Positions 1 to 51,372 of a stretch of DNA of 64,000 bases are shown one piece after another (position 1 is the stretch's first letter; each line of letters begins with the position of its first letter). The stretch is from contig OZ036000.1 in NCBI GenBank assembly GCA_964035015.1, positions 6,635,709 to 6,699,708 on the forward strand, written 5' to 3'. A program made the translations under genes and the position numbers. The stretch is from Corallium rubrum. Taxonomy: Eukaryota; Cnidaria; Anthozoa; Scleralcyonacea; Coralliidae. Under the pieces are notes generated by a model. That model searched no databases and was not told the origin of the DNA. It was given only the letters and a program-made list of their open reading frames with translations.

Positions 1-14015
<14,015 letters not shown>

Positions 14016-14165: not shown

Positions 14166-15140
14166 CCACAGAGCATGCGTGTCCTTGTGTACCACACTTC
14201 GACTGCAAGTAGTATATGGCTCGACATAGACACCGCTGGCCGTGGAAGAACGTAGTCATGACAAAGATGGATGACGTAATTCATGAAACGGCAAGCATTT
14301 TGTACACCGAGTAAGGTAACAACGGATAATGTAGATGTTGATTATAGAAACGCGCGCTGAGATAAACTCAGTTTTGAAGATTCCTTGAATTATAATCACA
14401 CAACGAACACCGTCAATCCGTTTGCACCTAGCGGTTGTCGGCTAGATTGCGAGCCGTCTCTATTTTCGTTGACCATGTAGCATTTCACGAACTTAATGAC
14501 CATTGCATTTTGATGAATTTATTGACCATTGCATTTTGATGAACTTAATGACCATTGCATTTCACGAACTTAATGACCATTGCATTTTGATGAAATTGTT
14601 GACCATTGCATTTTGATGAACTTAATGACCATTGCATTTTGGTAAACTTAATGACCATTGCATTTGACGAACTTAATGACCATTGCATTTTGGTGAACTT
14701 AATGACCATTACATTTTGGTGAACTTAATGACCATTGCATTTTGACGAGATCCGATTGCATTTCGGCGAATTTAATAACCATTGCATTTCCCCCCAAAAC
14801 GATAAGCACCTTAATAGATTTTTTTTTAAAAAAATATAATGTAAATGGTTATCTCAGGAATTTGAAAATAGTCTTAACATAATATTCTGAATTCCGGTGA
14901 ACATTAAGAACATTGATGATACTCTAAGTCAGTGAATGAAGTATATACAATCTCCGGACAAGTCGGGAAAAATTTACTTGACTGTATTATTGCGACGTTG
15001 ACTCGGCTGGTGGTCAAGAGCTTGTCAAGTCGTGTTTACTTTTCTTTTTGTTTTCATTGATATCATCGGGCTATGCATCAAAATATTGCGCGGTGTAAGA
15101 TTCTCTGACGGATTAAGTTTCACAAGGAGGAGAAAACAGA
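14166..15140. other. Intergenic stretch with a ~27-bp minisatellite
   Basis: From about 14474 to 14790 units of GAACTTAATGACCATTGCATTTTGAT repeat about eleven times with variants (shown in pieces: GAACTTAATGACC then ATTGCATTT). The remainder has no gene I can support; the last 100 bp before 15214 would hold the 5' leader of the GAS1-like gene. Confidence 0.8.
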
Positions 15141-15213
15141 GCGTTTTGTGACTTTGGCAAGAGTTAAGGGCAATATCCCGAAGCGTGTTTCGACCGAAGG
15201 CCGCGCGTGTTTG

Positions 15214-15981
15214 ATGGCTGCCGCTTGGAGTTTGAATACGGTGCTTCTGGTGTTTTTATGCGTGTTGAAAGAACACGCTATTGAAAGCGACACTAAAGAC
15301 TGCTATCAGGCTGTTAGCGACTGCAGGAACGATTCCAAGTGCGCTCGTATGCTACAAATTTACGAAAAGGAGTGCAAATCGATTGTGAACATTTTCGACA
15401 TTTTTTCCAACACCTCGATGTTTCCGTGTTCGAGTAAATGCGTGAATTCTATCAAATCAATGATGCAGACCACGAAAGGGGCAATGTTGTGGAAGTGCGA
15501 ATGCAACCAGGATGGGGAATGTCTTACGCTAAAGACCCGCAGTCAGAAATGTCTCACCATAGCCAATGGCACTTATCGGAAACGAACGGGCTGCAGCGTT
15601 GTTCAGGCAAAATGCTTGAAGAACTCCAAGTGTAAACAAGCGCAAAAGGAGTTCCTACGGAAGTGTTCAAAGTTGTTCTCGTCAACGAATTGTACCGCTA
15701 ACTGTTTGTCGAGCCAGAAAAAGCTGTTTAGTTTGGCTATCGGCCGGTCATTGATGGACTGCGAATGCGACGGACTCGAAGAGCTCTACTGCCTCGTGCT
15801 ACGAGCTCACGCCGAAAGACTGAAATGTTACTGGAAGAACTGGAAGAACTGGAAGAACCGACGAGATCGGAAACGAAAACGATGTAAAAGACAGAGACAA
15901 AACCGAAAACATGCGAAACAGCGTACACAACGCAAAGTAGATAACAAGTGCGGAAGACGTGGTCAGCGAAAGAAAGACTAA
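15214..15981 (+). CDS. GAS1/GDNF-receptor-alpha-like secreted cysteine-rich protein
   Basis: A 255-residue single-exon ORF. The chosen ATG gives a good signal peptide (MAAAWSLNTVLLVFLCVL); the frame is open upstream but only by non-ATG codons. Two GDNF/GAS1 domains follow. The first runs from about residue 30 (DCYQAVSDCRNDSKC) to KCECNQDGECL; the second runs from GCSVVQAKCLKNSKC to DCECDGLEELYC. Each has the CxxxxxxC, CxxxC and CxC pattern of this family. GAS1 of vertebrates is also intronless and binds Hedgehog and GDNF-family ligands or RET at the cell surface. Here the C-terminus is about 50 residues of Lys/Arg-rich sequence with three WKN repeats and no hydrophobic GPI signal, so the protein may be secreted and bind heparan sulphate or nucleic acid. 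Hedgehog-related ULK3 upstream is probably coincidence. Confidence 0.82.
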   Translation: MAAAWSLNTVLLVFLCVLKEHAIESDTKDCYQAVSDCRNDSKCARMLQIYEKECKSIVNIFDIFSNTSMFPCSSKCVNSIKSMMQTTKGAMLWKCECNQDGECLTLKTRSQKCLTIANGTYRKRTGCSVVQAKCLKNSKCKQAQKEFLRKCSKLFSSTNCTANCLSSQKKLFSLAIGRSLMDCECDGLEELYCLVLRAHAERLKCYWKNWKNWKNRRDRKRKRCKRQRQNRKHAKQRTQRKVDNKCGRRGQRKKD

Positions 15982-23066: not shown

Positions 23067-26000
23067 TTATTCAACCTGTCCTGAATGGTTTGATGAGGTA
23101 AATGCACTGCATGTAATCTGTGCCAAACGATCGAGCCTGTTTTCTTCATCAAGCCTGAACTGCAAATTTGCTGATGATTTTAAGCTTGTCAATCTTTCAT
23201 AAGTCATGGGTTCAATGACAAAAGACGATAGGGTTTTCGTTCTACTGATTGCAACATAAGAGACTCCAGCCGTTCTCTCAGATTTACCAATATCAATCCA
23301 AGCCTTTGGCAGTGTGAGACCTTGACTCTTGTGAATTGTTAGAGCCCAAGCAAGTCTAAGAGGTAATTGTTGCCTCTCATGAAAACCATTTTCTGACTGT
23401 GAGGAGACAGTGATTGGACATATTGGGACACATGATGGTCGAGTGTCATCAAATGAAGGACCTCTGTAGTTCTCAAACTGAACAATTACAGCAACAGGCA
23501 AAGTTGGTGGCTGATGGTTGCTTTCAAAGATAAAATCAATGACTGTTCCAGTAGCCCCATTGCAGAGACCAACACTTGACCATAAATTCATGGTTAGCAT
23601 AACTCTAGCACCCTTTGCTAAAAACACCACAGGTTCTAATCCAGACATGTCTTCTGAAGAAATTTTCTTGGCAATCACAGATGAATGCCGAGCATTAATA
23701 TGAGCAACTGGATACTGAAGTTTAGTCAGTTGTTCATGGTTGTAATTTGCAACTTGTTCATTGCTATAGAAGAGCCTTGTAGCATCTTCAAATTATGACA
23801 AGTTTGGGATACTTGATGGTTGGCGAGTTAAAAGTAATTTCCAGTCTTCAACTGTCGACTCAGCTATACGAAGTCGCAACAACAGATCTCTGAAGTTGGT
23901 TTGTTCAACGTTCATGCCTTGTACTCGCTGATTTACAGTGAGTTTAACAACTTTGTCAAACATGTGATAAGTTTGATACCCTTGTTCACCAACAGCACTT
24001 GATGGTTTGGCATGATAAAGAGGCTTATCTGCTACAGGTGGTAACTGTCCTGGATCACCAGTTAAAATCAGAGATTTCCCTCCAAGAACTTTGTTGTTAT
24101 ATCCGGTTGCTTGTTTACAACGTTTGTCAATCCAGCCAAAAGCAACTTGGCCAAGCATTGAGTATTCATCAATAATAATATAGTCAACTTCATTTAAATT
24201 TTCTTGCAGTCTACACAAGCTTTGACCGGCAAGATCTTTTTTACCCCGTGATCCAATGAGTAATTTCAACAAAGAGTGTACAGTAACACCTCTTATATTA
24301 TAAGCAGCTTTACCAGTTGTTGCGGTAACTGCACATTTACCTTGTAGAAGGTTCCAAATAGCATTGATAAGGTAACTCTTACCAGTACCAGCTACACCAA
24401 TAATTACGAGGCACAATGGTTCTTTTTCAGATGAATCATCATCGAAATGAGACTTGACAATATTATAAGCTAGTGCTTGCATTTCACTGAAACTGTTTGT
24501 ATCTACAACTTCATATTGTTCATTTATAGTGACAGGATTATCGTTCTTGGTTTTAATCCATGTTGGCATTGCATAGATTTGTTGATCAGAATAGTTAGCT
24601 CTGTCTTGGTGCCAGTCATGTATTGACTCTGGTGTTTGCTCAGAGTTATCAAATGGGGTGTTAAGTTCGGATAAAATCATCCATTCTTCACGAGTAATAT
24701 CTTGCTCTTCACAAGGTTCATCTTCTGGTTCTTGTTGACTCTCCACAACAGATTGTAGTTTATCAAACCAGTCTGGGACATTAGTTTGTCCATAAGGTGT
24801 CTGCAAGAATTCTTGCCAACAATTAATTAAAATTTCATCAGTTGGGTCTTGGTCATCCCATGCATTGTTTTGGGTTATTTGCCAAGGTTTATACCTCAGA
24901 ACTTGATATTTAGAATAAAGACCAAAATTTGGCCCTTTCGGATTAGGAGAATAAGTTGGAAATATTCTTGGCACAACATTATCTGGTAGTTTTGTTAGCT
25001 CATTGTTAACAACTTTGTATTTTGAAGCAAACTGAACAAAGTTCATGCTCACAATATCATGTGAACTATCATATTGTTGACGGTTAGCATAAACGTCGAG
25101 AAGAGAATTATCAGTACAAGAATCACCAACCTCAATAGATTCATTGTCACGTACTCTGCGTGAACCATTGAGACTCACTGGCATCACTTTAAATGATGAA
25201 CTATGAAGTTTTAGTGACAACAAATGGTGCATTGTCTCTTGAGCTGCATAATCTCTTTCATCAAGAGTTTTCATAACTACCTTTTTAATAGCCCTGTGAG
25301 GGTCGCTATTGTTGTCAACATTCTGGACAATGGAATTAAATGCTTGTTTTAGCATAGGTGACCTTGGTTCACCTTTAGCAGCATATTTAGTTAAATATTC
25401 CACACAAGCATAGTGATCAATAACAACTTGAATATCACAGTTAGCTCTCCATCCTTGTAATTGGAGTTGTTGTTGGTTATTTAACCTAGAATCATTTCTT
25501 TTAGTGACAATCTTTGCCCTATACTGTACATTATCAACTGTGAATTTCTTCAAATTCTAATTTTGTCTGAGGACAGTGATCAAATGGGAAATGAAATCTA
25601 CATTTCAACTCTGATTCATTAGATTTCTTTCTAAGACAATAGTTTGTACTGCAACGAGTGTGTCGTTGAACCATATTTAAAAGATCTATATAATCAGATT
25701 GTATTTCATTGTCAGGAATGTCATTGTGGCATTTTTGACATGGATGAACTTGTGGTCTTATCCAGATTTCCTCATCTGGTGGGTTTGGGTTTATAGTTGA
25801 CAATAAAAAATCAACATACTGACATACTGTGTCAGCAGCTTTCTGACCAGCTTCAATATCCTGGTCTAATTCTGTAGTATCAGGACAATCATTGTCATCC
25901 TTAAATTTCTGCGCTAAGAACCCTTTCAGAGCAGTCTGAGTAAGTTGACACAGTCCTGGGTCATTATTCAGTTTAGCAGTACCATGACAGTGAATACTAC

Positions 26001-27888
26001 CTCTGCCTTGATATTCGTATCTGAACCAGTGCCACTTTGCACTGAGAGTATCATAAAGCCAGTGTTTAACAAAGCTTTCTAGTCGTTGGGTAAAAAACCA
26101 ATCCACAATATGTGGACTGTTAATGACATTTTGCCGTCTTAACGCACTGGTAGTATCAGTGTGAGTGTCAGTATTTGCTCCAAACAGAGCATGTAACTCA
26201 GGCCAATGCATATCTGCAGATGAAAAAGTAAAGAATAATGTTGGTGCCCCAACATTAGTTATAATAGCTGAGTTCCTCCCTCACTTTATTCCAGTAGGCA
26301 TTTGTACCAGCAATATTGCCAACATATCGTGACACTTTAGACATAAATACAGTTGAGTTGTTACTCACTGCCATTTCACGCAGCTCATCAATAGTGAGAT
26401 GTGCTTCACCTGGATTTTGTTTTAGGAATATTCCACTTTGTTGTAAAATGCGCTTCCTTTGGATCATGTTAAAAGCCCAGTATGAAAACCTGGGATGGTT
26501 AGCAAAACGGTACACCCATTTACCATCAATAATTTCAGCATATTTTAATAAATGCTTTATTCGTTCGGTAAGAGGAACATCTCTCAAGAGAGCTTGATTA
26601 GTGGGATCACCTTTCCCATCAGGGAATAATGTTGGAAAAGCCATAGTGGCTAGATGTGATATTTGATATTCATTTAATGGCTCATTTTCAACAGTGGGCC
26701 AGGTCATTGGTTCATTTGCACTAAGCTGATTTCTAACAGCTTCAAGTTCTTGTTGTTCTTGTTTACCAACAGGTAAGAAACTACTCATTTCAGTTGAGTC
26801 ATTATATACAATATCTTCAGAAGGGTTATCAGTAGGTGGGCCTAAATCAGGCATAACATTTTCATCTGATACTATATCATCTTCAGTCTCAACAGTCATG
26901 AGATCTGCTGGAATACCATTTTCAGGCAAAGAATTTAATGCATGTTCATTAACGTTTAACTCAGAATAATGAGGGTTATTATGTATAAGCCACAATAAGG
27001 CATTTTGAACTTTTTGCTTTCTTACAGTCACATCTTTAAATGTGTTATCTTTGCCTTTGACCTTGACAATAATTACAGACAAGTCTTTGGCATATCTTGG
27101 CAATGATGTTGCAAGCTCTTTCACATTTTGTGGCAAGTTAATACAATGCCCTGAGTAACCCCGTTGACCACCAGGTTTAATATAAACTCTCATGATAGGG
27201 AGAGCACGAGCAATTAACATTTCCTCAATTTGAGTCATGTTTTGTAACTCATATGGAACACATGATGGTATCATTGAATTTTCACTTGAAAATTTTTTAG
27301 GAGATTTTTTATCTCTAGAACATCTTGAACACACATAATCATTAGGTGACCTTGGTTTAGATTTCAATGGCCATGCCTCTTGACAAATGGTACATTGACT
27401 GATTGAAAATTGAACAGATTTATGGAATTTATTAATGTTAGATTTTGCCCAACATTGTTGTTCAATACCACCACTTTTGGTGATGTCAAATTGTTTTAAA
27501 TAATCCTGCTGATTAACTATTTTTTGACCCTGTGATAGTTTCTGTTTATGAATAGAACTTATAGAAGCTTTCTCTTGTCGCTTTTTTTTTTATAGATTCT
27601 AGCTTTTTCAAGTCTAGCTTCTTTCTCATTGTCAGTTTCCTCTGACCGTTTTTTTTGTTGCGACTCTCTAGCATTTACAAGTCTAGCTTGTTTCTCATTG
27701 TGAAAATTCAGCGAACAGTAGAAATTATTTCTGTGCCATGGATAACCATCATATTTGGTCTGGAGTAAATACAATATTACAAGTTCTTTGGGAAAATCAA
27801 ATACTGTGGTTGCAGTGGTGTATTCTTTCATGACAATAACAGTATGGAGTTGTGGATATGTCCAAAGATCTCCTTGAAAGTATTGCAT
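23067..27888 (-). pseudogene. Helitron-like replication initiator / PIF1 helicase, inactivated
   Basis: From the ATG at 27888 the frame reads an N-terminal charged repeat (NEKQARL...NEKEARLEKAR), then CTICQEAWP...CSRCSRDKK, and the Helitron-like N-terminal domain (26255-27367). The HUH nuclease motif is GRGSIHCHG (about 26000) and the tyrosine motif YLTKYAAKGE (about 25385). The helicase shows Walker A GVAGTGKS, Walker B IIIDEYSM, GDPGQLPPV, then HKSQGLTL near the end. Rep nicks and joins DNA and the helicase unwinds it in rolling-circle transposition. The frame is broken at a T run (27581-27591), near 26262, near 25555 (all single-base shifts) and by an in-frame TAA at 23791. Aside from these breaks the sequence is well kept, suggesting recent loss or assembly error in the homopolymer. 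Confidence 0.88.
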
Positions 27889-29342: not shown

Positions 29343-29680
29343 AAAGGCTTTCGGAGTAATGCGACCTTTTTCAGAACACATGCTATTCTCAATGTCACTG
29401 AAAGGCTTTCGGAGTAATGCGACCTTTTTCAGAACACATGCTATTCTCAATGTCACTGAAAGGCTTTCGGAGTAATGCGACCTTTTTCAGAACACATGCT
29501 ATTCTCAATGTCACTGAAAGGCTTTCGGAGTAATGCGACCTTTTTCAGAACACATGCTATTCTCAATGTCACTGAAAGGCTTTCGGAGTAATGCGACCTT
29601 TTTCAGAACACATGCTATTCTCAATGTCACTGAAAGGCTTTCGGAGTAATGCGACCTTTTTCAGAACGCGTGCTATTCTC
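29343..29680. repeat. 58-bp tandem array interrupted by the RAG1-like transposon
   Basis: Five full units and one partial unit of exactly 58 bp, starting AAAGGCTTTCGGAGTAATGC and ending GCTATTCTCAATGTCACTG. The sixth unit breaks after CTATTCTC at 29680; its missing end, GTCACTG, resumes at 36777 on the far side of the transposon. Units 1-5 are almost identical. Confidence 0.95.
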
Positions 29681-29723
29681 ATTAGAGAGCTTAAGCATAC
29701 AGGCGTTTTAGAGCCACGGACGG
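29681..29723 (+). repeat. Left terminal inverted repeat of the two-gene transposon
   Basis: 43 bp; first 19 bases ATTAGAGAGCTTAAGCATA match the right end exactly, and the final CACGGACGG is also exact. Differences cluster in the middle (CAGGCGTTTTAGAGC against TTAGGCGTTTTTGAGA). Confidence 0.9.
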
Positions 29724-29773
29724 CAATTGAATTCAATAGCCTTTTGCATTCAAAACAATGATAATGAGCAATT

Positions 29774-29795
29774 CATGGCCAACTATTGCGGTCAT
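29774..29795. promoter_or_regulatory. Internal 22-bp inverted motif, left copy
   Basis: The core GGCCAACTATTGCGGTCA lies 50 bp inside the left terminal repeat. Its exact complement lies at 36358-36379, about 50 bp upstream of the chromodomain ATG. Conservation at both sides beyond the termini suggests a transposase-binding or promoter site. Confidence 0.6.
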
Positions 29796-30526
29796 TGAGC
29801 CTGCGAGGCGCAAGCGGATGCCCCCATGGGGTCAACAAAATATAAACCAAAATCTCTATAAAATACATAGGAGTCGAGATAAAAACATCAAATTTATAAA
29901 AAGACTACTTCTAATTTCGCATTTGCCAACATGGATTAGTATTCTTAAAGTATATACGAGCATTCCGGTTAAATAAAACAATGTTAAAAACATCATCTTA
30001 TGTTTCCTTTCAAAATTCCAATTTTGAAAGCGCAGACATAAGACTTTATATACAAACTTAATCAAAATCCACTGATTTATCGAACTTCGCTTCATCATAT
30101 CTAAAATTGTATAAATTCGTCGCGGTTTGCCAACATGAAGTGCACAAATTAAATATGGTCGCTAGCTACTCACGAAATTTGGTTGCCATGACTAGTGGGG
30201 GCATGTTTCCTTTCGGCCAGCAAAGTCAGGTCTTTCCAGGGAGTGCTCCAAGTAATTGTACGCCATGAGTGCTAGATCGCTTGCCTACTACCAGTTTACC
30301 GTACTACCTGATTCAAACCCTTATTTTTGATCAAAAATACACTCTAACAACATATTATATGGTATCAAAATGATCGCCATAGCCTTTAGTTTTGAATGCC
30401 GCAAACGTTTGTGGGGTATGTGTAACACAGTCATTGCTATCAGCGGTTAAAGCAATGGACAATTTACTTCCGGTTATTTTCCCGCGAATTAATACCGCGA
30501 ATATTATAATTGTTTGAATCACAACA

Positions 30527-33500
30527 ATGTCAGATGAACTTCATAAATATTGTAATTTTGAAAAATTTAAAAGAGATATTGTTGTCGATACGAATCATAG
30601 CCTTCGATACGTGAGAAAGCAGTGCGTCAATTCTGAAGAAGTTGTTTTTACAGTACATATAACGAATGATGTCCTGAAACGTTGGCATGACTTTAAAAAT
30701 ACCCAAAGCTTGAATGGCATTAAGACCTTTAGTTTCGTCGAACTATTAAATCTTTTCCTCGCTCAAAACCATGCTATTGTGATCAAGAAAAATTGCAGCA
30801 GAATCGAGGAACGGTTAAGAAGATATACTTCAGCAACTAAAGCCAAATCGTGCGGGAAAAGAGGCGGTGCTTTTGTTAAATTTTGTAAACAAAGCAAAAG
30901 TATTGCAATCCACAATAATGAAGTTTTGACGGCAGCTGAATTGGAGAAAGCATTATGTGATCTGAAGGCCACTAAAGATGCACTAGAAGCGGAAAATGAT
31001 ATACTCCAGCAACGGTGTAGTGACTTGTACCAGAGTTTGTTGCAGGCACAAGAGGAAAGAAGCAAAAGCTGTGAGGAATTGACCAAAGTACAGGCCGACC
31101 TAGACAGAGTTAAACGAGAGAATGTACATTTGTGGCAATACATGGACAATCTTTCGGAACAAGAAGGTTTCAAAAACTGTGGGAAGCCAATTTCAGAAGT
31201 GAAAGGAAGGCAGCAACGGCGGAAAGTACGAGAGCTAAAGACATATGTCGAAAAAGCACTTTGGTTTGCAGAAACATTTGGTCTGAAGCTAAGCTCAGTG
31301 GAATTTGCATGCAAGGATGGCAAATCACATACGATTGATTACCAGGTAGATTTAGATAGGAAGAAATCTTACACAGAACTTTCTGAGGAGGAGCAAATTA
31401 AAGTCCAACAGGTCCTTTTTATAACAGACAAATTCTGCATTGGGGAGGCTGCCTATCACGAGTTAACGATGACGGATGGAGGAACAGGGTTACCTCGCTC
31501 CTACCTATTGAAGCAATGTAAGACACAACTGAATAGTCTTTGCCACATTAGAAGAACACCGGGAGAAGATGAAGGAGCTCAACTGGATCTTCTGCCTGAA
31601 TTAAAAAATACAATTGCAAAACAGGTAATCTCTATGTATTTTTTGGACACAAGTTGATCTGTGATGTTTGATTGAGGAGGGGGCTGGGGGGGGTGTTCAA
31701 ATGACTCGTGTATTAGTCTGGTATGGTTTGTCAAATGATAATTATGTTTATCAGTGTGGAAAGTGTTGGAACAAGGTTATTACTGAAATCATTTCTATAT
31801 ATTCAACTTTTTATTGTAGATTGATCTGACAAAATTTCAAGAAAATCCCAATTGCAAATTAAGAATTAAGATCAGTGGAGATGGGGCTAAGATGACCAGA
31901 ATTACAAGCTTTGTGATTATGTCCTTCTCTTTGCTTGACTCGGATGATGTAATGTCGTCTAAAGGTAATTATCATTTACAAGAGATCTAAGTTAGAATGT
32001 AAGGTGTTGTTTAGCTATACATGTAGGTAATGCCATATTGGCTGATCAATAAAATTAGGAATATTATATACATTATTATCCATTTTATAACTATTAGTAG
32101 AATTATTAGATGTAACATTGGGGTTGTCTTACTCTGTCCTCAGAGGCTCAGTGATAAATTTGAATAGAAACATCAACCAATAGTTTTTAAATTAATATGT
32201 ACATCTCCTCATATTTAACAGGTAGTCACACAGTTGCTGTGGTTAAAGGGCATGAGAGTTATGATCTTTTGAAGAGTTCATTTGCTGATTTATTTAAAGC
32301 AATCAATGGCATAGCTAAAGATGGTAAAATCTCTGTGAATGGACTTGATATCCCCATTGATGTTTTGCTTGGTGGTGACTATAAGGTATACACTATACAT
32401 GTTAACTTTACATCATGATGATTTTCAACATGGGTTGATAAATCTCTGGCAATTACACTTGAAGTTTGATCCCTGCATGAAATCAGGTCTACATGTTAAC
32501 CACACCACTGATAAATCTTACACAATTTTTATGTGGAATGGTTATCCGGGTAGCTCAAGTGATCAAGTGAGCCTGAAGTGCACCCAGATATAAACATTTG
32601 TTATGTAATTTACAAATACATACTCTTTTTGTAATAGGCTTACATTTGCCCATTGACTAGGCTAAAACACAACTAGCAGCAATTATGAATTGAATGATGT
32701 ATATACTGTACTTATCTTATAAATTTATAGTTCCTTTTGTTACTTCTTGGCATGAAGGGTGCAACATCAGATCATGCCTGTATTTGGTGTACTATTCACA
32801 AGGGAAACAGGTAAGCTTAATAGGTTTACAATTAACAATCTGATTAGTGTGTGTAATGCACATGAACTAGCTGCATACTACTTTGATTAATAATCAACAA
32901 TGTGATAGGTATGTGGCTCATAATTATCATGCCACAGAACCTGAGTGTTTACTTTCTGGCATTTTAGATTTGATATGTCAAAACCAGAAGACTTTTATAG
33001 TACTGGTGACATGAGCAGAACTTTAGAACAGATCAAGAAGAGTGCCTTGCAAATGAAATTATCTTGTGTTCACCAACCATTGCTGAATATCCCATTACAA
33101 AATATTGTTCTTGATGAGCTTCATCTGATGCTAAGAGTTACAGGTTTGTATTACTTCACTTTATTAATACATTCATCAATAATTAAGGGTTTCAGTTGAT
33201 AAGTGTCATCAATTTTAAACTATTAGCATGCCTTTACACACCAAGAGAAGCAATAACTGTAACTAGCAAACTTCTGGATATGTCACAGGTTTACCTAAAG
33301 GTTCAGGAAATTAATAAAATATAAAATAATACCCTTGATATTTCTCTTGTGATCAAGTGAAAATAATTAAAATATAAATTGTTTAACATCTGTATATAGC
33401 ATACAGTACATGTACCACATTTTCCCTCTTTGCCTTACCTATAGATATCTTGACCAGGAACCTAATGAATGAAGCATTAACTTGGGACAAGGCAGACAAT

Positions 33501-34851
33501 TACAAAAAACGTCCATGTGAAAGAACAAGCTTGCATGTTGATTCACTAGTATCTGCTATCAATAGCTGTGGAGTAAGCTTTGCAATATGGGAGAAAAAAG
33601 ATGCCAATGGCCAAGGTAGTGGGACACATGACTTTACCAGTCTGATGGGTGGTGATAAGAAGAAGCTTCTGAAGGATCTCCCTGACAAGTTACTGGGTGT
33701 GATTAAGGCAGACACGAGTGCAACAGTGATAAAAATTTGGAAGGTTTGTTGTCGTACATAAATTCCTAGAATAATTTAGGGAAAACAAATGTTTCTTACA
33801 ATAGGATTAATAATGAACTAATACAGTATTTTCCCTTGGAAATAAGATACTATATATTATTTATATATATATATATGTATACATAACTACAGGTACATAA
33901 TATACAGTACATCAAGGAGTTTAATAATAATAATTAAAATAATTAAAGGAATCTGGACAGGACAATGACTCATAATTTTTCAAAGCCACAGCTGTATATA
34001 TATTCCTGAAATGGGACTATTTTATGAACATTTCAGGATTTCAATGAGCTATACCAAATGCTGGCAAAACAAAATCCCTCTGATGACTATGTTACAAGCT
34101 ACTTTGAAAAGGTTTGTGTTTTAGACAGAGAAAGTTTGACCATGTCAACAACTTCACTCTGACTACTGTACCCCTTAAACATTATTATTGCAGGCAACAT
34201 CTTGGGTGAACCTCTTTACTTCACTTGGGGGAGCTTGTGAAGGTTATTGCAAAGAAAATGTCACTCCATACATGCATGCAATGGTCTACCATGTCCCCTA
34301 CTTTATGAGGATGCACAGAGGTATAAAGAGATTTACAGGACAAGGTAACATTATTTACATATATTTACTGTACATAACATAGAGTCTTTCATCAAATTAA
34401 TTCAGAGATTATAATTACAGAATACAATTACACAAATAAAATAACTCTACAATGTACTTAAGGTACTGAAAAGAATAATGATGACTGTCGCCGGATTCAC
34501 TTGACTAAGTCCAACAAGTGGGATGCCACTGGAGATGTTCTCCTGGTGATAAAAAGAGTCGAAGCCACTTCAGAGCATCAGCGAATAACAAGATCATATA
34601 TAAAGAAAAAAGCTCAATACTGGGATCATGAAATACTGGAGAAGAAAGCCAAGCACAAAGAAACGAGAATGGGAAACTCTCCACAAAGGGAAACAAGTAT
34701 TGATGAAATCCATACAGATCAAATCAATACAGAGCAAATGTCCCCAGCCGAGCTTAGGGAGGAGTTAAAATCTTTAGGCATTGTTACTCGAGTAAGAAAG
34801 TTAAGTCGCCTTCAAGAAATGTATCAAGATGCCCTAAAACAAGTGGAGTAA
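30527..34851 (+). CDS. RAG1/Transib-core-like DDE transposase, nine exons, 858 aa
   Basis: Exons 30527-31624, 31820-31964, 32222-32385, 32731-32810, 32968-33143, 33445-33743, 34037-34111, 34194-34344 and 34463-34851 all have GT-AG borders and sum to 2577 nt. Residues ~136-210 form a heptad-rich coiled coil (AELEKALCDLKATKDALEAE). The catalytic region has D387 (ISGDGAK), D467 (LLGGDYKF), zinc ligands C485/C488 (ACIWC) and H707/H712 (HAMVYH), and E732 (GQGTEKNND). In mouse RAG1 the set is D600, D708, C727/C730, H937/H942, E962: second D to first C is 19 there and 18 here, H to H is 5 in both, last H to E is 20 in both. LDELH (545-548) parallels the RAG1 IDALH motif. It should cut and join transposon ends in the nucleus. 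The N-terminus (KRGGAFVKFCKQ) may bind DNA. I recall similar unnamed proteins in invertebrates but cannot assign a named superfamily. Confidence 0.85.
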
Positions 34852-35262
34852 AACAACTGGTAGATTATCCCTATAGATATGGCCATAGGCTACTATACTG
34901 TAAATAGCAACAATATTTATTCGTCTTCAAACGAAGAAGTGTATTCTTCCAAATAAACACCATGTTTGTTGTTTTGAACGTCAACACGCATGCGTATTAC
35001 AGGAAAGTTGTAAGCTATCTGCTTTCACTTTCCTGCACACTGGGGGAAATTGTCATTCGTGACGAAAATTATCCAACATGTTGAATATTTGAGAAAAACA
35101 GCATGAGTGACCAAATTCTTACAAAACAGCCCCGCACACTGGAGCTAACGGCCTACGCCATCGGTCACAAATGAAGTTTTGCTAAGCTGATAGCTCTAGT
35201 GTGCAGTGGGCTTTAGGCTTAATATTGATGAGTGCATGTGCAAATACATATTAATTAATTAT

Positions 35263-36306
35263 TTACAAGTTATACATATTGCATGGCCGTTTAAGTAAGT
35301 CAACACACAATTTCTCAATTGGTAATCGAGGTGCTTTGCACAATTTGTTGTCTTCCATAATTTGTTTCTTTGGGGACCAACTTAAAATTGGTTTTATTTT
35401 TATGGGAGGTTGTATAGCATGCCCCTCCCCATGTTCATTGAGCTGATACCACCAATGTTCTGGTAAGGCCAAGCGAGTTAGGTCGTGGATAGAGTAGAGC
35501 CTAAATCCTTTATGGTCGCACTCTTCCCCTCTACCTCTTGAGCAGTATCGCCAGATGTCTAGATCCATAGGCAGGTATATCACTGATAATGATCTTGATT
35601 TCAAACCAGATGAGATGCTGTTGTAAAATTCTCGACTGGCGTGATGTAATCTTTGATCACTTGGTTTTGGTGGGTTTTCATATCCTCTAAAAAATATTTA
35701 AAATTATATTTTCAATGAGATCAGACTGAGCACAAGTATACTGATTCCATCACTTACTGTACACCATATATTTAGTGATGTATTCAAGTGCAATGATGTA
35801 AGTGGTTTGCCTTAGCTTAAGAGGGTTTTCATGTTATGTATATATAAAACATATTACTTTTATACTATTTATACTACTGTATATAATAATAAATGACAAT
35901 TACAATACCTTATCAGCTGTTCACTCAGATGGTTTGCAGGTTCCCATGTACAATTATCAATTGTCCAACCGTCCCATTTGATTAGATATTCATTATCCTA
36001 CAAAAATACGGAGCAGACATTGCTTTAACAACATGCATATTTCAAATACAAACAGAATCAATATATTGCCAACAATCTATAGTACAGTACTGAGTACATC
36101 AATCATCAAATATCATGCGTAATTTCCAATTATTGAGTTGATTTGACACTTACATTGTTCATTCTTCGTCGATAAATAATTCTCTCAACAGTATAAATAT
36201 CAGGAAGAGTCTTCCTTGGTCTTTTAGGCGCCGTATTGTATAAAACAACAGACGAAAAATTGTTTAACTGTGCGTAGTCCACGCTGTGAAGATTTCTTGT
36301 CGCCAT
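35263..36306 (-). CDS. Chromodomain protein encoded by the transposon, three exons, 221 aa
   Basis: Exons 36306-36154, 35997-35909 and 35686-35263 (- strand) join in phase with GT-AG borders to 666 nt. Residues 36-75 are a chromodomain: DIYTVERIIYRRR, then EYLIKWDGWTIDNCTWEP. The aromatic cage positions Y38, W59 and W62 match those that hold methyl-lysine in HP1/Polycomb chromodomains; a basic stretch (KRPRK) precedes it. The C-terminal 140 residues (WRYCSRGRGEECDHKGFRLY, then LPEHWWYQLNEHGEG) show no domain I know. It faces the transposase tail to tail inside the same inverted ends. Inference: it directs integration or tethers the element to H3K9 or H3K27 methylated chromatin, as chromodomains do in chromoviral integrases. 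Host capture rather than an original element gene is possible. Confidence 0.82.
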
Positions 36307-36357
36307 GTTGACTTGTGTAAATTATCTGGAAACGCCGCTGTACAAAATGTTCTACAC

Positions 36358-36379
36358 ATGACCGCAATAGTTGGCCATG
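36358..36379. promoter_or_regulatory. Internal 22-bp inverted motif, right copy
   Basis: Exact reverse complement of 29774-29795 (core TGACCGCAATAGTTGGCC). It lies in the presumed 5' region of the chromodomain gene and ~350 bp from the right terminus, so the spacing to the terminus differs from the left side. Confidence 0.6.
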
Positions 36380-36732
36380 TAAAATTCCAAGAGCAAAGAG
36401 AACGCCGTCGTCGTTCTACACAAGACGTCATTGAGAGCATTTTCACGTTCTTCAGACGACGGGAACTTCTAGAACGTTGAGGCCTGTCATCGTTGTTTTA
36501 CTACAATAGACATGCTTTTAAAGTAGACTGAAACTTGTATTTTGAGGGGGATAAATTTTTTACATTACAATATAAAATAAAGGATCTGTATTTTTATATA
36601 AAGATGAAATTTAAGCTTATGAGCTAACAGCCTGGATATGTGATTATTCATAGCCTTTGTTATGGGTAAAAAAGTCTTTTCAAAGAATACGCGGTTCAGT
36701 AGTTCTGTATTGTATTCCTGTTCTTCCGGTCA

Positions 36733-36776
36733 CCGTCCGTGTCTCAAAAACGCCTAATATGCTTAAGCTCTCTAAT
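36733..36776 (-). repeat. Right terminal inverted repeat of the two-gene transposon
   Basis: 44 bp, complement of the left end with a one-base length difference. It is followed at once by GTCACTG, the remainder of the interrupted 58-bp array unit. Confidence 0.9.
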
Positions 36777-37519: not shown

Positions 37520-39656
37520 TTATATCCTTACTGTCGGGACGTGGGAGTGTGGAGGCGAAACAATGCATGCATTCATGGCTTCTGTTGCGCTGTTTGCGCG
37601 GAATTTATTTCGATGACGACATTGACTGATAATTTCTGCTCTTTTGTTGAGTAAACAATTCTTGTTTTTATCTTTCAAAATATAAAATTTTTCTTCTAAA
37701 CATAAATTACATCGTTTTGAACCTCCCGTGTACGAAATAGAATGTTTTAAAATTTGCCAATTAATACTAAAATCCTTATTGTTTTCTTTCAATGCCCAAA
37801 TATATTTCGAAAGTTCGGTGTCGTTTGCATGCTTTTTATGCTGAAAAGATTTAGTGTGGTTGGCCAATCGCTCTTTGAATGTGGTTGAAGTCATGCCAAT
37901 GTAATTCTTGATCGTGTTTGTGTTGTTTACTGTGACTGTTGCTTTGTATACTATGTCCCTAGTCATGCATTGTTTTCTAAGTGGACAATTCGTATTTTTC
38001 CTACAATTGCATCTGCTAGTGTCCTTATCCTGTGGCGTGTTATTCCTAGATATGTGTGCATTGTGTTTAGTGATTATTGACTTAACATTGTTCATGCAGC
38101 TGTAACTTACTTTGACTGTGTTTCTGTTAAAAATCTTATGGAGCTTGTGGTGTGGTGGGAAGTGCTTGTCAATTAGGTTTAGGAAATTACGTCCTATGTT
38201 TGTGCTTACACTCTTGCTAAAAGGTGGGTTGAACCAAGTGATGTTGCGTTGCCTATTCCTGCGTGGTTGCTGTGCTGTGTGTTGAGTGTAGCTAATTTCT
38301 GATATATGGGTGCAGATTCCTGAAAAACTTGTTCATCTGATGAGAGAAGTGCAATGCGCTTGTTGATTGATGCAGGTAACTGTCTTGTGATGCTTGGTGG
38401 GTGGTTAGAGTGCTTATTTATGTAAAGTGGATCGTCATTGGGCTTCCTATAGGGCCTGTAATTTCCATTGTTAAGGTCGAAAGTTACATCTAAAAAGTTT
38501 ACTATGCGTAAATTTGATTCGGCGGTAATTTTTAGGTCAAACTGCTCGAAAATTTTGTGGAGTTCTTTCCTTGTTTTGTCTGCTAAACGTGCTGATTTAC
38601 TTTTTATAATAGCCAAACCGTCATCTCTATATAGGCCAATGCTTTCTTTGCCAAATTTCTTACTTAGGTGATTTAAAATGAAAAGGCCTACTAACTCACA
38701 AACTTCCGCGCCGTCGAAACAACCCATGGTAACGTCAAACAAACTATTGCTATCTTTTTTTATCCATGAAATTCCGGTATTGAAAAGGAGAGATTTTCTA
38801 GCGTGTTTTATTATTGAAATATTGTTTTCAGTTATAGTAGCCAAATTCGAAGCCCAAGCTAATGCTTGGTCCAATAGTTTTTCAGAAATAGACGGGTAGA
38901 AATCGACAATGTCAAACGAAATAAAACTATGTCTGTCCTTATCTTTTATATTGCCAAACCACTCAATTACTTGTTTTGTATTTCTCCATTGATTTAAATT
39001 CAGTTTTTGTCTCAAATTCGAATTAATTTTGTCCAAAATCACCTTACTTAGTTTTCCGGATTCGCTTTTAGCGGGGTTAATTAATCGGCATTTTGGATTG
39101 TTTTCGAAATTTTCTTTGTGGTCTTTTAAAGATATAAATGCTTCGCGTTTTTTCATTTTTTCAATTTTGTCGCCGATTCCTAAACTGTTCGAAATTTCTT
39201 TTAGTTCCGAATCAATTTCATCTCGGATCCATGCTTATATGTTTTTGTGATGTTGTCATGTAGGAGCTTGTTGTATGTGTCGAGCGGGGTTTCATAAATG
39301 TTCCTAGTTTTGTCTGCAAAAATGAAAATGTTGGGAGATGAATTAATTTTCTTTAAATCGGTAGCCAAACATTTCTGAAACTGGTTCGTATATGGCCGAA
39401 ATTGTATATTTTCGATGAGTTTTATAAGGTCGTCTTCGAAAGGTTTCATTTCCGGAATAGAAGGAGGTGTTTTGTTGGACGCAAGGCCGAAAGGGTTGTT
39501 TTGATTTTCTCTCTGTTTGTTTTTAAGAAAGAAATTGGCTTTCCATCTCATACGTTTTATTACACTTTCCACGTTTTCAATCAAATTCTTCAAATAAGCG
39601 TCCTCTGATGGTATTGGGATATTCTTTAGTGAATAGTCAAATCGAAATTGCCGCAT
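37520..39656 (-). pseudogene. Penelope-like retroelement (RT plus GIY-YIG), decayed copy 1
   Basis: The frame starts MRQFRFDYSLKN at 39656. The reverse transcriptase (38206-39156) shows INPAKSESGK, FDIVDFYPSIS, MGCFDGAEVCELVGLF and the catalytic YRDDGLAI. The C-terminal part (37520-38095) has a CxC...C zinc knuckle (CNCRKNTNCPLRKQC) and the GIY-YIG endonuclease motif NYIGMTSTTFKERLANH. Such elements copy RNA into DNA at nicks made by GIY-YIG. Single-base shifts near 39224 and near 38280 break the frame. It lies between TA tracts, a usual setting for this family. Confidence 0.88.
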
Positions 39657-39715
39657 TTTGAAGTTAAATAGAAATGAATAACGTAAACAAGAGTGCACAA
39701 CCGATATGCGGGTGC

Positions 39716-39718
<3 letters not shown>

Positions 39719-39795
<77 letters not shown>
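39719..39795. repeat. (TA)n tract
   Basis: TA run directly upstream of the Penelope-like copy; a 40-bp sequence (ATGAATAACGTAAACAAGAG) is duplicated on both sides of it. Confidence 0.95.
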
Positions 39796-39797
<2 letters not shown>

Positions 39798-39849
39798 GAA
39801 TAACGTAAACAAGAGTGCACAACCCATGGCGAGAAATGGTGGACATAGA

Positions 39850-40440
39850 GAGGCGGAGCTAAAGCCCTATTAAACTAGTACCTATGTCGTGCGGTCGTCA
39901 CAGTTCCGCGGTTCAGAAGAAAAGAGAACAACTAATTTATGCAATGTTGGATGAAATCTTCATTCGATGATCAGAAAATACTGAAGCTTTGAGATTGAAA
40001 ACCGCAACAACGACAAATACAGGCTAGAAATGAAGAATATCATCGAAAAGACGGATCTTTATAGTAGCCGAATCAGATCGAAACTTGTACGGAAATAGTA
40101 TACCTCTGTTTGATTTTCGATAACGTGAGCAGCAAGGTTGGTGCAATTTGCGTATTCGCCATATTGGCTTATGTCAGACTTGTGCTCAAAATAGTATATC
40201 AAAAACCGCAACGGATTTAATATCTGTGGCATATCGCTCATGATATTTATATCGCAGATGTGTTGCACTATACGATTCAGATTGAAACATTTGAAATAAT
40301 TTAAAAATTGACACTGCTACGACGATTGTTTCACTCATCCTCTATGTAAGTCCTATTAATCTTGCAGAACTTTTCTAGTCAAAATTTTTGTAAGTGGGCA
40401 TGCATTACGCGCATGCGTGACCATTATTTCTCGCCATGCG
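39850..40440. other. Intergenic, no gene seen
   Basis: Low-complexity-free sequence with only short open frames. GATATGCGGGTGCGAATA at 40439 repeats the edge of the TA tract at 39704, so the two TA tracts share a flanking duplication. Confidence 0.6.
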
Positions 40441-47255: not shown

Positions 47256-47480
47256 TGGGTGGGGTTAAATGGGACGTTGTATTCTGCATTGTCTAGAATT
47301 CAGGGTGATCCTGATGCCTAGGGGAATTCTCTCAGAGTCTGAGAGGTGGAACTTTCTCCCGGGGGTATTGTGTTCATGAACAATTAAACAATATGTAAGA
47401 AGTATGCCCTGCACCTCTAGTGCTTTTATGCATTGGTCGATGACAGTTAAAGTGCAAATGAAACGAAAATTAAGCTTGTC

Positions 47481-47906
47481 TTATTTGAAAGAACACTTAA
47501 AATGATAGAGTAACATCTTTTGCAGTTTTTCGTTTCCTTGCTTCGTTCTTGAGATATTTCAGTTTGTTTGATATGCAAATTAAACATTTTGAAGTCATGA
47601 CGTGCGTAATGAGTTATCGAAAAAAGTTATATAGCTTTGCTGTTATCAAACCAAATTAATCCAAAGGAAGCATGTAGGTGTGTTTCGCCCAGAACACTAA
47701 ACATGTAGATTTTCAGGTAATTATATTTGACAATATCAAAGATATATGACCTTTTTCGATAACTCATTATGCACGTCATGGCGTCAAAATGTTTAATTTG
47801 CACATCAAACAAACTGAAATATATCAAGAACGAAGCGAGGAAACGAAAAACTGCAAAAGATGTTACTCTATCATTTTAAGTGTTCTTTCAAATAAGATAA
47901 ACTTAA
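47481..47906. repeat. Foldback MITE, family F copy 4
   Basis: CTTATTTGAAAGAACACTTA and its complement at the far end; arms hold AGTAACATCTTTTGCAG and GAGATATTTCAGTTTG. The arms are about 85-90% complementary by eye. Confidence 0.85.
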
Positions 47907-48738: not shown

Positions 48739-49340
<602 letters not shown>

Positions 49341-51372
49341 AGATCCCAGACATGTTTTGATAGTTCTGTGTCGTTGGCGTACTTCGCGTCCTTAAAAGAT
49401 TTCGTATGGTTTCGGTAGCGTTCTTTGAATGTGTTTGATGTCATACCAATGTAATGTTTTGTGTTGTTGTTGTCAGTTGTCGTTATGTTGGCTTGGTATA
49501 CGATGTTGCCCGTTTGGCATTTTCCTTGGAGTGGACATGTGTCTTTTCTTCGGCAGTTGCAGGGGTTGCTATCGAGAGGTTTTCTCTTAGACAGGACCCG
49601 GAAATTGTGCTTGGAGATGGTACTTCGGATGTTGTCCATGCAGCTGTAACTGATCTTCACAGTGTTGCGGTTAAAAATCTTGTGTAGTTTGTGCGTTGCG
49701 GGGAAATGTTTGTCGATTAATTTAAGGAACTCGCGGCCGACGTTTGTTGTTACGTTTTTACTGTATGGAGGGTTGTACCAGGTTACGTTTCGTTGTCTCT
49801 TGCGTCGTTGTGATGTGGGCGATAGGGTTTGTGTTTCGGGAATGTAGTTTAGTTTGGCATTAAAATGGCTTCGTTTCAAGGCGTCTTCGTACAACGGTGA
49901 TGCGTTTTCAAAGGATTCTTGGTCGGATGATAGCAGTGATATTCGTTTGTTGATTGCTTGTGGAAGTTGCTTTAAGATGGATGGAGGGTGGTTAGAGTGG
50001 CTGCTGATAAATTGTGGGTGGTCGTTTGGTTTACGGTATGGTCGGTGGCTTCCGTCGTGCAGGTTTAGTGTTATGTCTAGAAAATTGACGATTTGTTGGT
50101 TGGTCGCGGTGGTAATTTTTAGGCCGAACTGCTCAAAAATTTCATTCACATCTTTTCTTGCTTTATCGGCTAATCTTGCACTGAGATTCTTTAACGATAT
50201 CAGCCCGTCGTCTCGGTATAACCCTGCGTTTTCCTTTCCAAACCTCTCACCTAGTTTGCTCAAGATAAATAAGCCTATCAGTTCGCAAACTTCAGCGCCG
50301 TCGAAGCTTCCCATAGTGACATCGAAATTGCTATGTGTAGAATTCTTGATCCATGTTTTCCCTCTGTTGAATAGGGCTGACTTGCGTGCGTGCTTTATTA
50401 CGGTTATGTGTTGGTCTGAGATTGTTGTGAATTTTTTCGCCCACGCGATGGCTTCATTTAGCAGGTTTTCTGAAATTGACGGATAAAAATCGACGATATC
50501 GAAGGACAGGAACGTGTGTCTGCTTTTCTCGTTTATGTTCTTGAACCAGTTGATGACTTCGTGTGAACTTCTCCATTGGTTTACATTGATAGCTGATCTG
50601 ATGGAGGTATTGATCCCATCTAGTATTTTGCTGATTTTCCCACTTTCACTTTTTGCAGGGTTGATTAGTCGACACGTTGGGTTATTGTGGAAATTGTCCT
50701 TGTGATCTTTCAGGGAGATGAATGACTCGCGTTTTGCTATTGGCTCTATTCTGTCGCTGATGGATAGGTCGGTGGCAATGGTTTTCAGTTCATTGTTGAT
50801 TTCGTCAATGGTTGCTTCACTTCCTATCTTGTATGATTTAGTCACGTTGTCGGTAAGCAGTTTGTTGTACGTTTCTGCGGTAGATGTTTCTGGTCTTGTC
50901 GGCAAATATAAACATGTTGGGCGATGAAGTTATTTTCTTCAGGTCGTTGGCTAAGGAGGTCTGGAATTGGTCGTGGACGGTTCTGAACTTTATGTTTTCG
51001 ATTAAGTTCGAAAGGTCGTTCTCGAATGGTTTCAGTTCGTTGGTTGTTGGTGGTGTTTTTCTAGATTTCAATCCAAAGGTGTTGTTGATTTTTTCGCTTG
51101 TGTTACCAGATAGAAAAAAGTGGGCTCTCCATCTCATTCGGTTGACTACATCTTCTGTCTTCTCAGTAATCCTTCTTCTGTATGCGTCCCGTGATGTTAA
51201 AGCAATGTTTTTCAACGAGTGATCGAATCGGAATTTCTTCATTTCTCAAGGCGAAGTGTGGCTTACAAATTAGAGTGCACAACTGAAAGTCAGGTGCGAA
51301 ATATACATATATATATATGGGTGTTTGTAAGGTTTTCCAAGAGTGCTCAATACTTACACGTAGAGCAGATAG

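Follow-up and report, generated by a model that had tools for sequence, protein, structure and literature searches.

A DNA transposon of Corallium rubrum predicted to pair a RAG1-like transposase with a chromodomain protein

Background

Why the RAG1 recombinase came with a histone-reading partner is an open question, and a locus in the red coral Corallium rubrum may extend it to a second group of RAG1-fold transposons. The analysed stretch of 64,000 nucleotides (G000:C13:6635709-6699708, here called the window) holds a 6606-bp transposon at 29774-36379, in which a gene for a predicted RAG1-like transposase and a gene for a predicted chromodomain protein face each other tail to tail. An earlier sequence-only reading of the window had described a larger element at 29681-36776, bounded by 43-44-bp inverted ends and by a split unit of a 58-bp array. 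The borders, genes, insertion sites and relatives of the element were analysed here in the 474-Mb genome. What gives the finding weight is that most of the related copies found in this genome retain both genes together. Our overall explanation, which we hold with fair confidence, is that 29774-36379 holds a cut-and-paste DNA transposon whose two genes are open, from a lineage of the CACTA-Mirage-Chapaev-Transib/RAG1 (CMCT) class, and that its partner gene would couple the transposase to chromatin.

Results

Borders of the element

The locus is nested: a unit of a tandem array contains a miniature inverted-repeat transposable element (MITE), which in turn contains the two-gene transposon. The array (29343-29681, 58-bp unit, 5.8 copies, detected with Tandem Repeats Finder) was the insertion target of the MITE, a member of a separate non-autonomous family about 490 bp long. 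Array unit and MITE ends together delimit a 3-bp target duplication, reading ATT on the left (29681-29683; AAT in the intact array) and AAT on the right (36774-36776). The left part of the MITE (29684-29773, + strand) begins AGAGAGCTTAAG, lies outside the two-gene element and was delimited from short genomic copies; the right part (36380-36773, + strand) was delimited from short copies and uninterrupted sites. The two-gene transposon between the halves was delimited by them, by its own inverted ends and by the homologous borders of its relatives. Its terminal inverted repeats are perfect over 22 bp, with CATGGCCAACTATTGCGGTCAT at the left (29774-29795, + strand) and its counterpart at the right (36358-36379, - strand); the end sequence reads CATNNCCAGAAATTGCGGACAT and the termini are CATGGCC...GGCCATG.

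Searching the genome with the whole of 29681-36776 (40 of 769 candidates scored) returned at least 38 short copies consisting of roughly the first 93 and the last 403 bases of that stretch. Identity was 96-99% in 37 of them; the remaining copy had 91%, over the right part. The join of GAGCAATT to TAAAATTCC was unbroken in all 20 of the short copies fetched, and in the window these same MITE halves are separated by 6606 bp. The 43-44-bp inverted ends (TAGAGAGCTTAAG) and the split array unit of the sequence-only reading are thus present in the DNA, but the ends belong to the MITE, as the uninterrupted copies document, and it was the MITE that split the array unit. The borders of the two-gene element are accordingly corrected to 29774-36379.

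The inner border is fixed independently, because related copies turn alike abruptly at the homologous base. In five copies of a related subfamily the upstream DNA is unrelated and similarity begins at one point, CATCGCCAGAAAACTCGGACATTGAGCC (TATCGCC in copy L022), and their right ends read CATCGCCAGAAATTATGGACA. Left ends in other subfamilies start with CATGGCCAGAAATTGCGGACA or CATTACCAGAAATTGCGGACA, so that the ends of relatives follow CATNNCC with the single exception of TATCGCC. The pattern CATNNCCAGAAATTGCGGACA had 13 matches in the genome against 0 for its reversed control, and eight of these matches make up four inverted pairs with spacings of 4.8-7.4 kb, each enclosing a transposase locus. 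Where both ends were read, the two genes recur together within matching inverted ends. The heptamer consensus of Transib and RAG-like (RAGL) elements is CACWRTG; the ends here start with CAT, not CAC, and the earlier description of them as unlike Transib holds.

The MITE makes a target duplication of ANT type, and a count by eye found its two sides identical in 15 of 30 copies. The MITE may be of Pangu type because ANT duplications are reported for Pangu transposons (excerpt of PMC4482050), but only those 15 of 30 copies have equal sides.

The transposase gene

The transposase gene (30527-34851, + strand) encodes 858 aa in nine exons (30527-31624, 31820-31964, 32222-32385, 32731-32810, 32968-33143, 33445-33743, 34037-34111, 34194-34344 and 34463-34851). 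It is open throughout with GT-AG introns, as is the convergent partner gene, and both gene models read through as first described. The key residues are D387 (31880-31882), D467 (32377-32379), C486/C489, H707/H712 and E732 (34468-34470). D467, C486-x2-C489, H707-x4-H712 and E732 form a C2C/H4H motif between the second D and E, and D387 is read as the first catalytic residue from its position in a strand of the structure model of a relative.

No Pfam family matched the transposase above its cut-off. When the family profile was compared with PDB, RAG1 ranked first (E 6.7e-5 for the whole sequence), followed by coiled-coil proteins from E 0.0025 over the coiled-coil region. The alignment places the GGDxKF...CxxC region opposite the corresponding region of RAG1, and VTPYMHA..HVPE...FTxQGxEKxND opposite the RAG1 region with H-H-E; the aligned RAG1 positions we take to be D708, the zinc ligands and E962. 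The structure was modelled for a single-exon relative, L066 (841 aa, 19 sequences, mean pLDDT 74.7, pTM 0.55). Foldseek ranks 1-31 for this model were RAG1 or amphioxus RAG1L (E 1.3e-12 to 5.5e-10), rank 32 was HzTransib (2.0e-7) and rank 33 fell to E 0.077. Profile and relative's model together identify the product as a predicted DDE-type transposase, and its RAG1-like character agrees with the earlier proposal.

The partner gene

The partner gene (35263-36306, - strand) encodes 221 aa in three exons (36306-36154, 35997-35909 and 35686-35263). Residues 38-84 match the Pfam chromodomain at E 6.6e-13 (48.8 bits against a cut-off of 25.1), and among the best 60 of 84 PDB matches of the partner profile are the chromodomains of CBX, HP1 and CHD1 (best E 1.9e-11). 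By these matches the partner has a true chromodomain, in agreement with the first description, and would be expected to bind methylated histone. Its C-terminal domain is conserved in the aligned relatives, where the L066 partner is represented by its last exon only. A structure model of the partner reached pLDDT 52 and was not used as evidence.

Pairing across the genome

The transposase search scored 53 of 506 candidates, and its 62 matches were merged to 49 loci; the pairing counts are a sample rather than a census, because only the best candidates were scored. All 62 transposase rows and 66 of at least 158 chromodomain matches entered the count, the omitted rows being extra exons of included loci and weak generic chromodomain rows. 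A convergent chromodomain-type gene lay downstream within 6 kb at 25 of the 49 loci, within 12 kb at 32 and within 35 kb at 35, against a chance expectation of 0.02 to 0.11 loci for such pairs at random places. No locus among the 66 rows used had a non-convergent chromodomain gene only. Inspection by eye showed three of the omitted weak rows (C1:75736158, C1:75739853 and C151:88230) to be within 35 kb of transposase loci, and both loci concerned were already paired.

Eleven of the 14 loci without a chromodomain partner belong to a second clade (B), approximately 25% identical to the first and assigned by match pattern in the transposase search (28-33% identity; C231:74295 by pattern alone). 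Clade B has a different convergent partner, of MBT/Tudor type, within 6 kb at 9 of 11 loci (compared by eye), and the chromodomain clade has its convergent chromodomain-type partner at 35 of 38. The sequence-only reading had named transposase copies without the chromodomain gene as the contrary outcome; taking both clades together, a convergent partner was found at 44 of the 49 scored loci, a result in favour of the pairing.

The clade-B partner profile matched the MBT repeats of L3MBTL3 first (4.1e-6), and MRG/EAF3, PHF20, ARID4A and MYST domains next, over its first ~50 positions (45 matches). Searched singly, one clade-B partner protein matched PHF20 at 0.0042, and its match to Pfam MBT reached only 0.12. 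RAG2 (kelch and PHD) was not among the best 60 of 84 PDB matches of the chromodomain-type profile nor among all 45 of the clade-B profile. A RAG2-like partner is rejected, the profiles matching chromodomains or MBT/Tudor types, and the original statement that no RAG2-like gene is present stands within those matches. Aligning the two partner types with hhalign gave 157 columns at E 2.2e-4 and a probability of 45% (control 0.75), which suggests that they are of common descent. A scan of viral contigs with set A3 showed no conserved stretch.

Two observations concern the transposase C-terminus. The clade-B proteins (L096:519-1223 and other clade-B loci) carry a zinc-knuckle-like CxxC...H...C (Pfam zf-CCHC E 0.057, below cut-off), and L066 carries a weak Rho_N/SAP-like stretch (0.0013 and 0.17).

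Target sites

Ten insertions with both ends known have an exact junction repeat of 0-2 bp. At two sites the target duplication is 0 bp. At the MITE site the flanks of the two-gene element sum exactly to the empty site, and at C243:216120 the flanks, once joined, encode PQANGQVES in frame within a Gypsy-like integrase, with a paralogue identical across the junction. None of the ten insertions sits at a junction of AAA with TTT. All three testable sites lie in repeats, but this does not speak for targeting, since empty sites can be compared in repeats only. One of them, at C13:9804265, lies in a dispersed repeat of which the window has a copy at 47463-47574 (94% over 112 bp).

Age, mobility and selection

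At the left end, four of the five copies of the related subfamily are 99.7-99.9% identical over 3.3 kb, and the fifth, L022, is 99.4-99.5% identical over 1.9 kb. At the right end identity is 99.9% over 2.6 kb among four copies and 98.5% for L039. The full partner protein with fixed exon offsets was read in three of these four right-end copies; L035 departs from these offsets after exon 2, a slip that we read as a 1-base gap in the intron. Because copies 99.7-99.9% identical occupy different sites, the lineage has moved recently. A single further long copy belongs to the window subfamily; it lies on C1, is interrupted by insertions, lacks both ends and matches query positions 640-5776 at 93-98% identity. 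Recent movement is therefore shown for sister subfamilies rather than for the window copy. In clade B, dN/dS was 0.10 for the transposase and for the partner at dS ~2; it was computable in two of seven pairs, dS being saturated in the other five. Two near-identical two-gene copies lie approximately 28 kb apart in the same orientation (C1:78763543 and C1:78792090 in G000), a spacing that could reflect local movement.

Other features of the window

On the - strand at 23067-27589, open reading frames with PIF1 helicase (Pfam E 1.7e-24), DUF6570 (3.3e-29) and, below cut-off, Helitron_like_N mark what these domains identify as a Helitron-like element. Reading frames at 37520-39866 and 49118-50929 (both - strand) resemble, by eye, Penelope-like reverse transcriptases that end in a GIY-YIG-type part; neither of the two frames scanned matched a Pfam family at E 0.001. 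At 15109-15981 (+ strand) a cysteine-rich reading frame has a GDNF/GAS1 domain (Pfam E 2.3e-5), which, like the introns, is in keeping with an animal genome.

Discussion

The sequence comparisons establish a mobile unit with its own ends, a precise insertion into the MITE, both genes and their linkage. How the parts would work together can be proposed as follows. RAG1-fold enzymes nick and form hairpins. The transposase would pair and cut the CAT...ATG ends by RAG-like chemistry, and the joining of the cut ends to target DNA would be staggered by 0 or no more than 1 bp. The chromodomain of the partner would bind a methylated histone tail and the conserved C-terminal domain would contact the transposase or DNA, making insertion or activity dependent on chromatin state. 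Such coupling to methylated chromatin may serve targeting, which we favour, or act against silencing.

Several points weigh against this explanation. The RAG1 profile match is modest, with a best single stretch at i-E 0.038, and Pfam RAG1 itself reached only E 0.0046, in 2 of 19 family members. The structure model is that of a relative, and its TM-scores with RAG1 (ranks 1-31) range from 0.37 to 0.42 by query and from 0.49 to 0.62 by target. As no EnSpm or Chapaev structure appeared, the fold cannot distinguish those two lineages from RAG1/Transib. No partner was found at five of the 49 loci (C1:73147267; C1:78960712, with the nearest match 40 kb off; C23:14563336; C1:73764420; C231:74295). 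At C13:9804265 joining the flanks gives a sequence that exceeds every one of six empty copies by one base, so that a 1-bp duplication fits better than 0, and the same base stands on both sides in 8 of 10 insertions (P 0.0006); a duplication of 1 bp is likely at some sites. Histone binding, protein contact and transposition are predicted from the sequence.

Among other explanations, two deserve a hearing although each seems to us rather unlikely. The partner could be an anti-silencing factor that recognises chromatin marks on copies of its own transposon and maintains their expression, with no role in insertion targeting. The same gene linkage and conservation would be predicted, and transposons with epigenetic factors are described in the excerpt of PMC12730594 (the VANDAL anti-silencing protein, SET methyltransferases, TET/JBP); the tail-to-tail layout, by analogy, points rather to RAG1L-RAG2L, whose reader serves the recombinase complex (PMC7204232, PMC8355894). 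The element could equally be taken for a member of a named CMCT lineage (Transib, Chapaev, EnSpm or a Repbase-only family) with an extra gene, a doubtful assignment in our view: in its favour are features of the class, namely the C(2)C and H(3-4)H motifs and the CA...TG termini, but the ends begin CAT instead of CAC, the target duplication is 0-1 bp against 2-5 and the transposase has no Pfam family above cut-off.

Two further explanations are scarcely credible. Were 29681-36776 one autonomous element of 7.1 kb, the ~490-bp copies would be its internal deletion products, and they do share its ends; yet 20 of 20 lack every base of 29774-36379, which is exactly the span of the inner inverted repeats, and relatives have their borders at the inner repeat with unrelated DNA outside. 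The uninterrupted MITE copies and these borders rule out the wider limits. That two domesticated host genes adjoin by descent and are not mobile is just as improbable. Both frames are indeed open, but near-identical copies have different flanks, precise empty sites exist, and the insertions contradict a host-gene pair.

If the proposed coupling of transposase to chromatin is true, the partner would correspond in function to the RAG2 PHD finger while being built from a different reader. A second RAG1-fold group with another reader in the same tail-to-tail place would then suggest that chromatin coupling of this enzyme class is repeatedly useful. Recently mobile copies make such coupling testable. 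That a target duplication is nearly absent is uncommon for the RAG1 fold and is relevant to the spacing of strand transfer.

Comparison with known systems

Among the listed titles and abstract starts of open-licence PMC papers none described a cut-and-paste transposon encoding a chromodomain, and a name may exist in Repbase or Dfam. Fungal DNA transposons carrying TET/JBP and oomycete ones carrying SET are known (excerpt of PMC12730594) and resemble the present element as DNA transposons with an epigenetic accessory gene; their accessory genes encode enzymes, whereas a reader is predicted here. Spy (PHIS) shares the lack of a target duplication and prefers AAATTT for insertion (excerpt of PMC4482050), a preference not seen here, and it differs from our RAG1-type fold in its transposase.

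The CMCT class is characterised by C(2)C and H(3-4)H between the second D and E, mostly CA...TG termini and duplications of 2-5 bp (excerpt of PMC12730594). The window element shares the C2C/H4H motif and the CA...TG termini, whereas the new elements have duplications of 0-1 bp. With Transib it has in common the fold (HzTransib at rank 32 for the L066 model), the C2C/H motif and the CA...TG termini, and it differs in its second gene, its end sequences and the target duplication of the new elements. The element probably represents a new lineage within the CMCT/RAG1-fold class.

Closest in design are the RAG-like elements (RAGL, ProtoRAG, TransibSU), with a RAG1-fold transposase, a convergent second gene and a chromatin-reader domain in the partner; RAG1L and RAG2L lie tail to tail, and the PHD reader of RAG2 serves the recombinase complex (PMC7204232, PMC8355894). 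The partner here is of chromodomain or MBT/Tudor type, RAG2 being absent among the PDB matches listed, and the ends are CATNNCC in place of the CAC heptamer type. The target duplication is 0-1 bp, against 5 bp for Transib and RAG-like elements (PMC7204232, PMC9435367). On balance we lean towards a CMCT lineage, so far undescribed, that keeps a RAG1-fold transposase in stable tail-to-tail pairing with a reader of the Royal family (chromodomain or MBT/Tudor, possibly one diverged partner family) and joins its ends with little or no stagger. Such a lineage would be an independent counterpart of the design of RAG1 with a chromatin-reading partner that lies behind V(D)J recombination.

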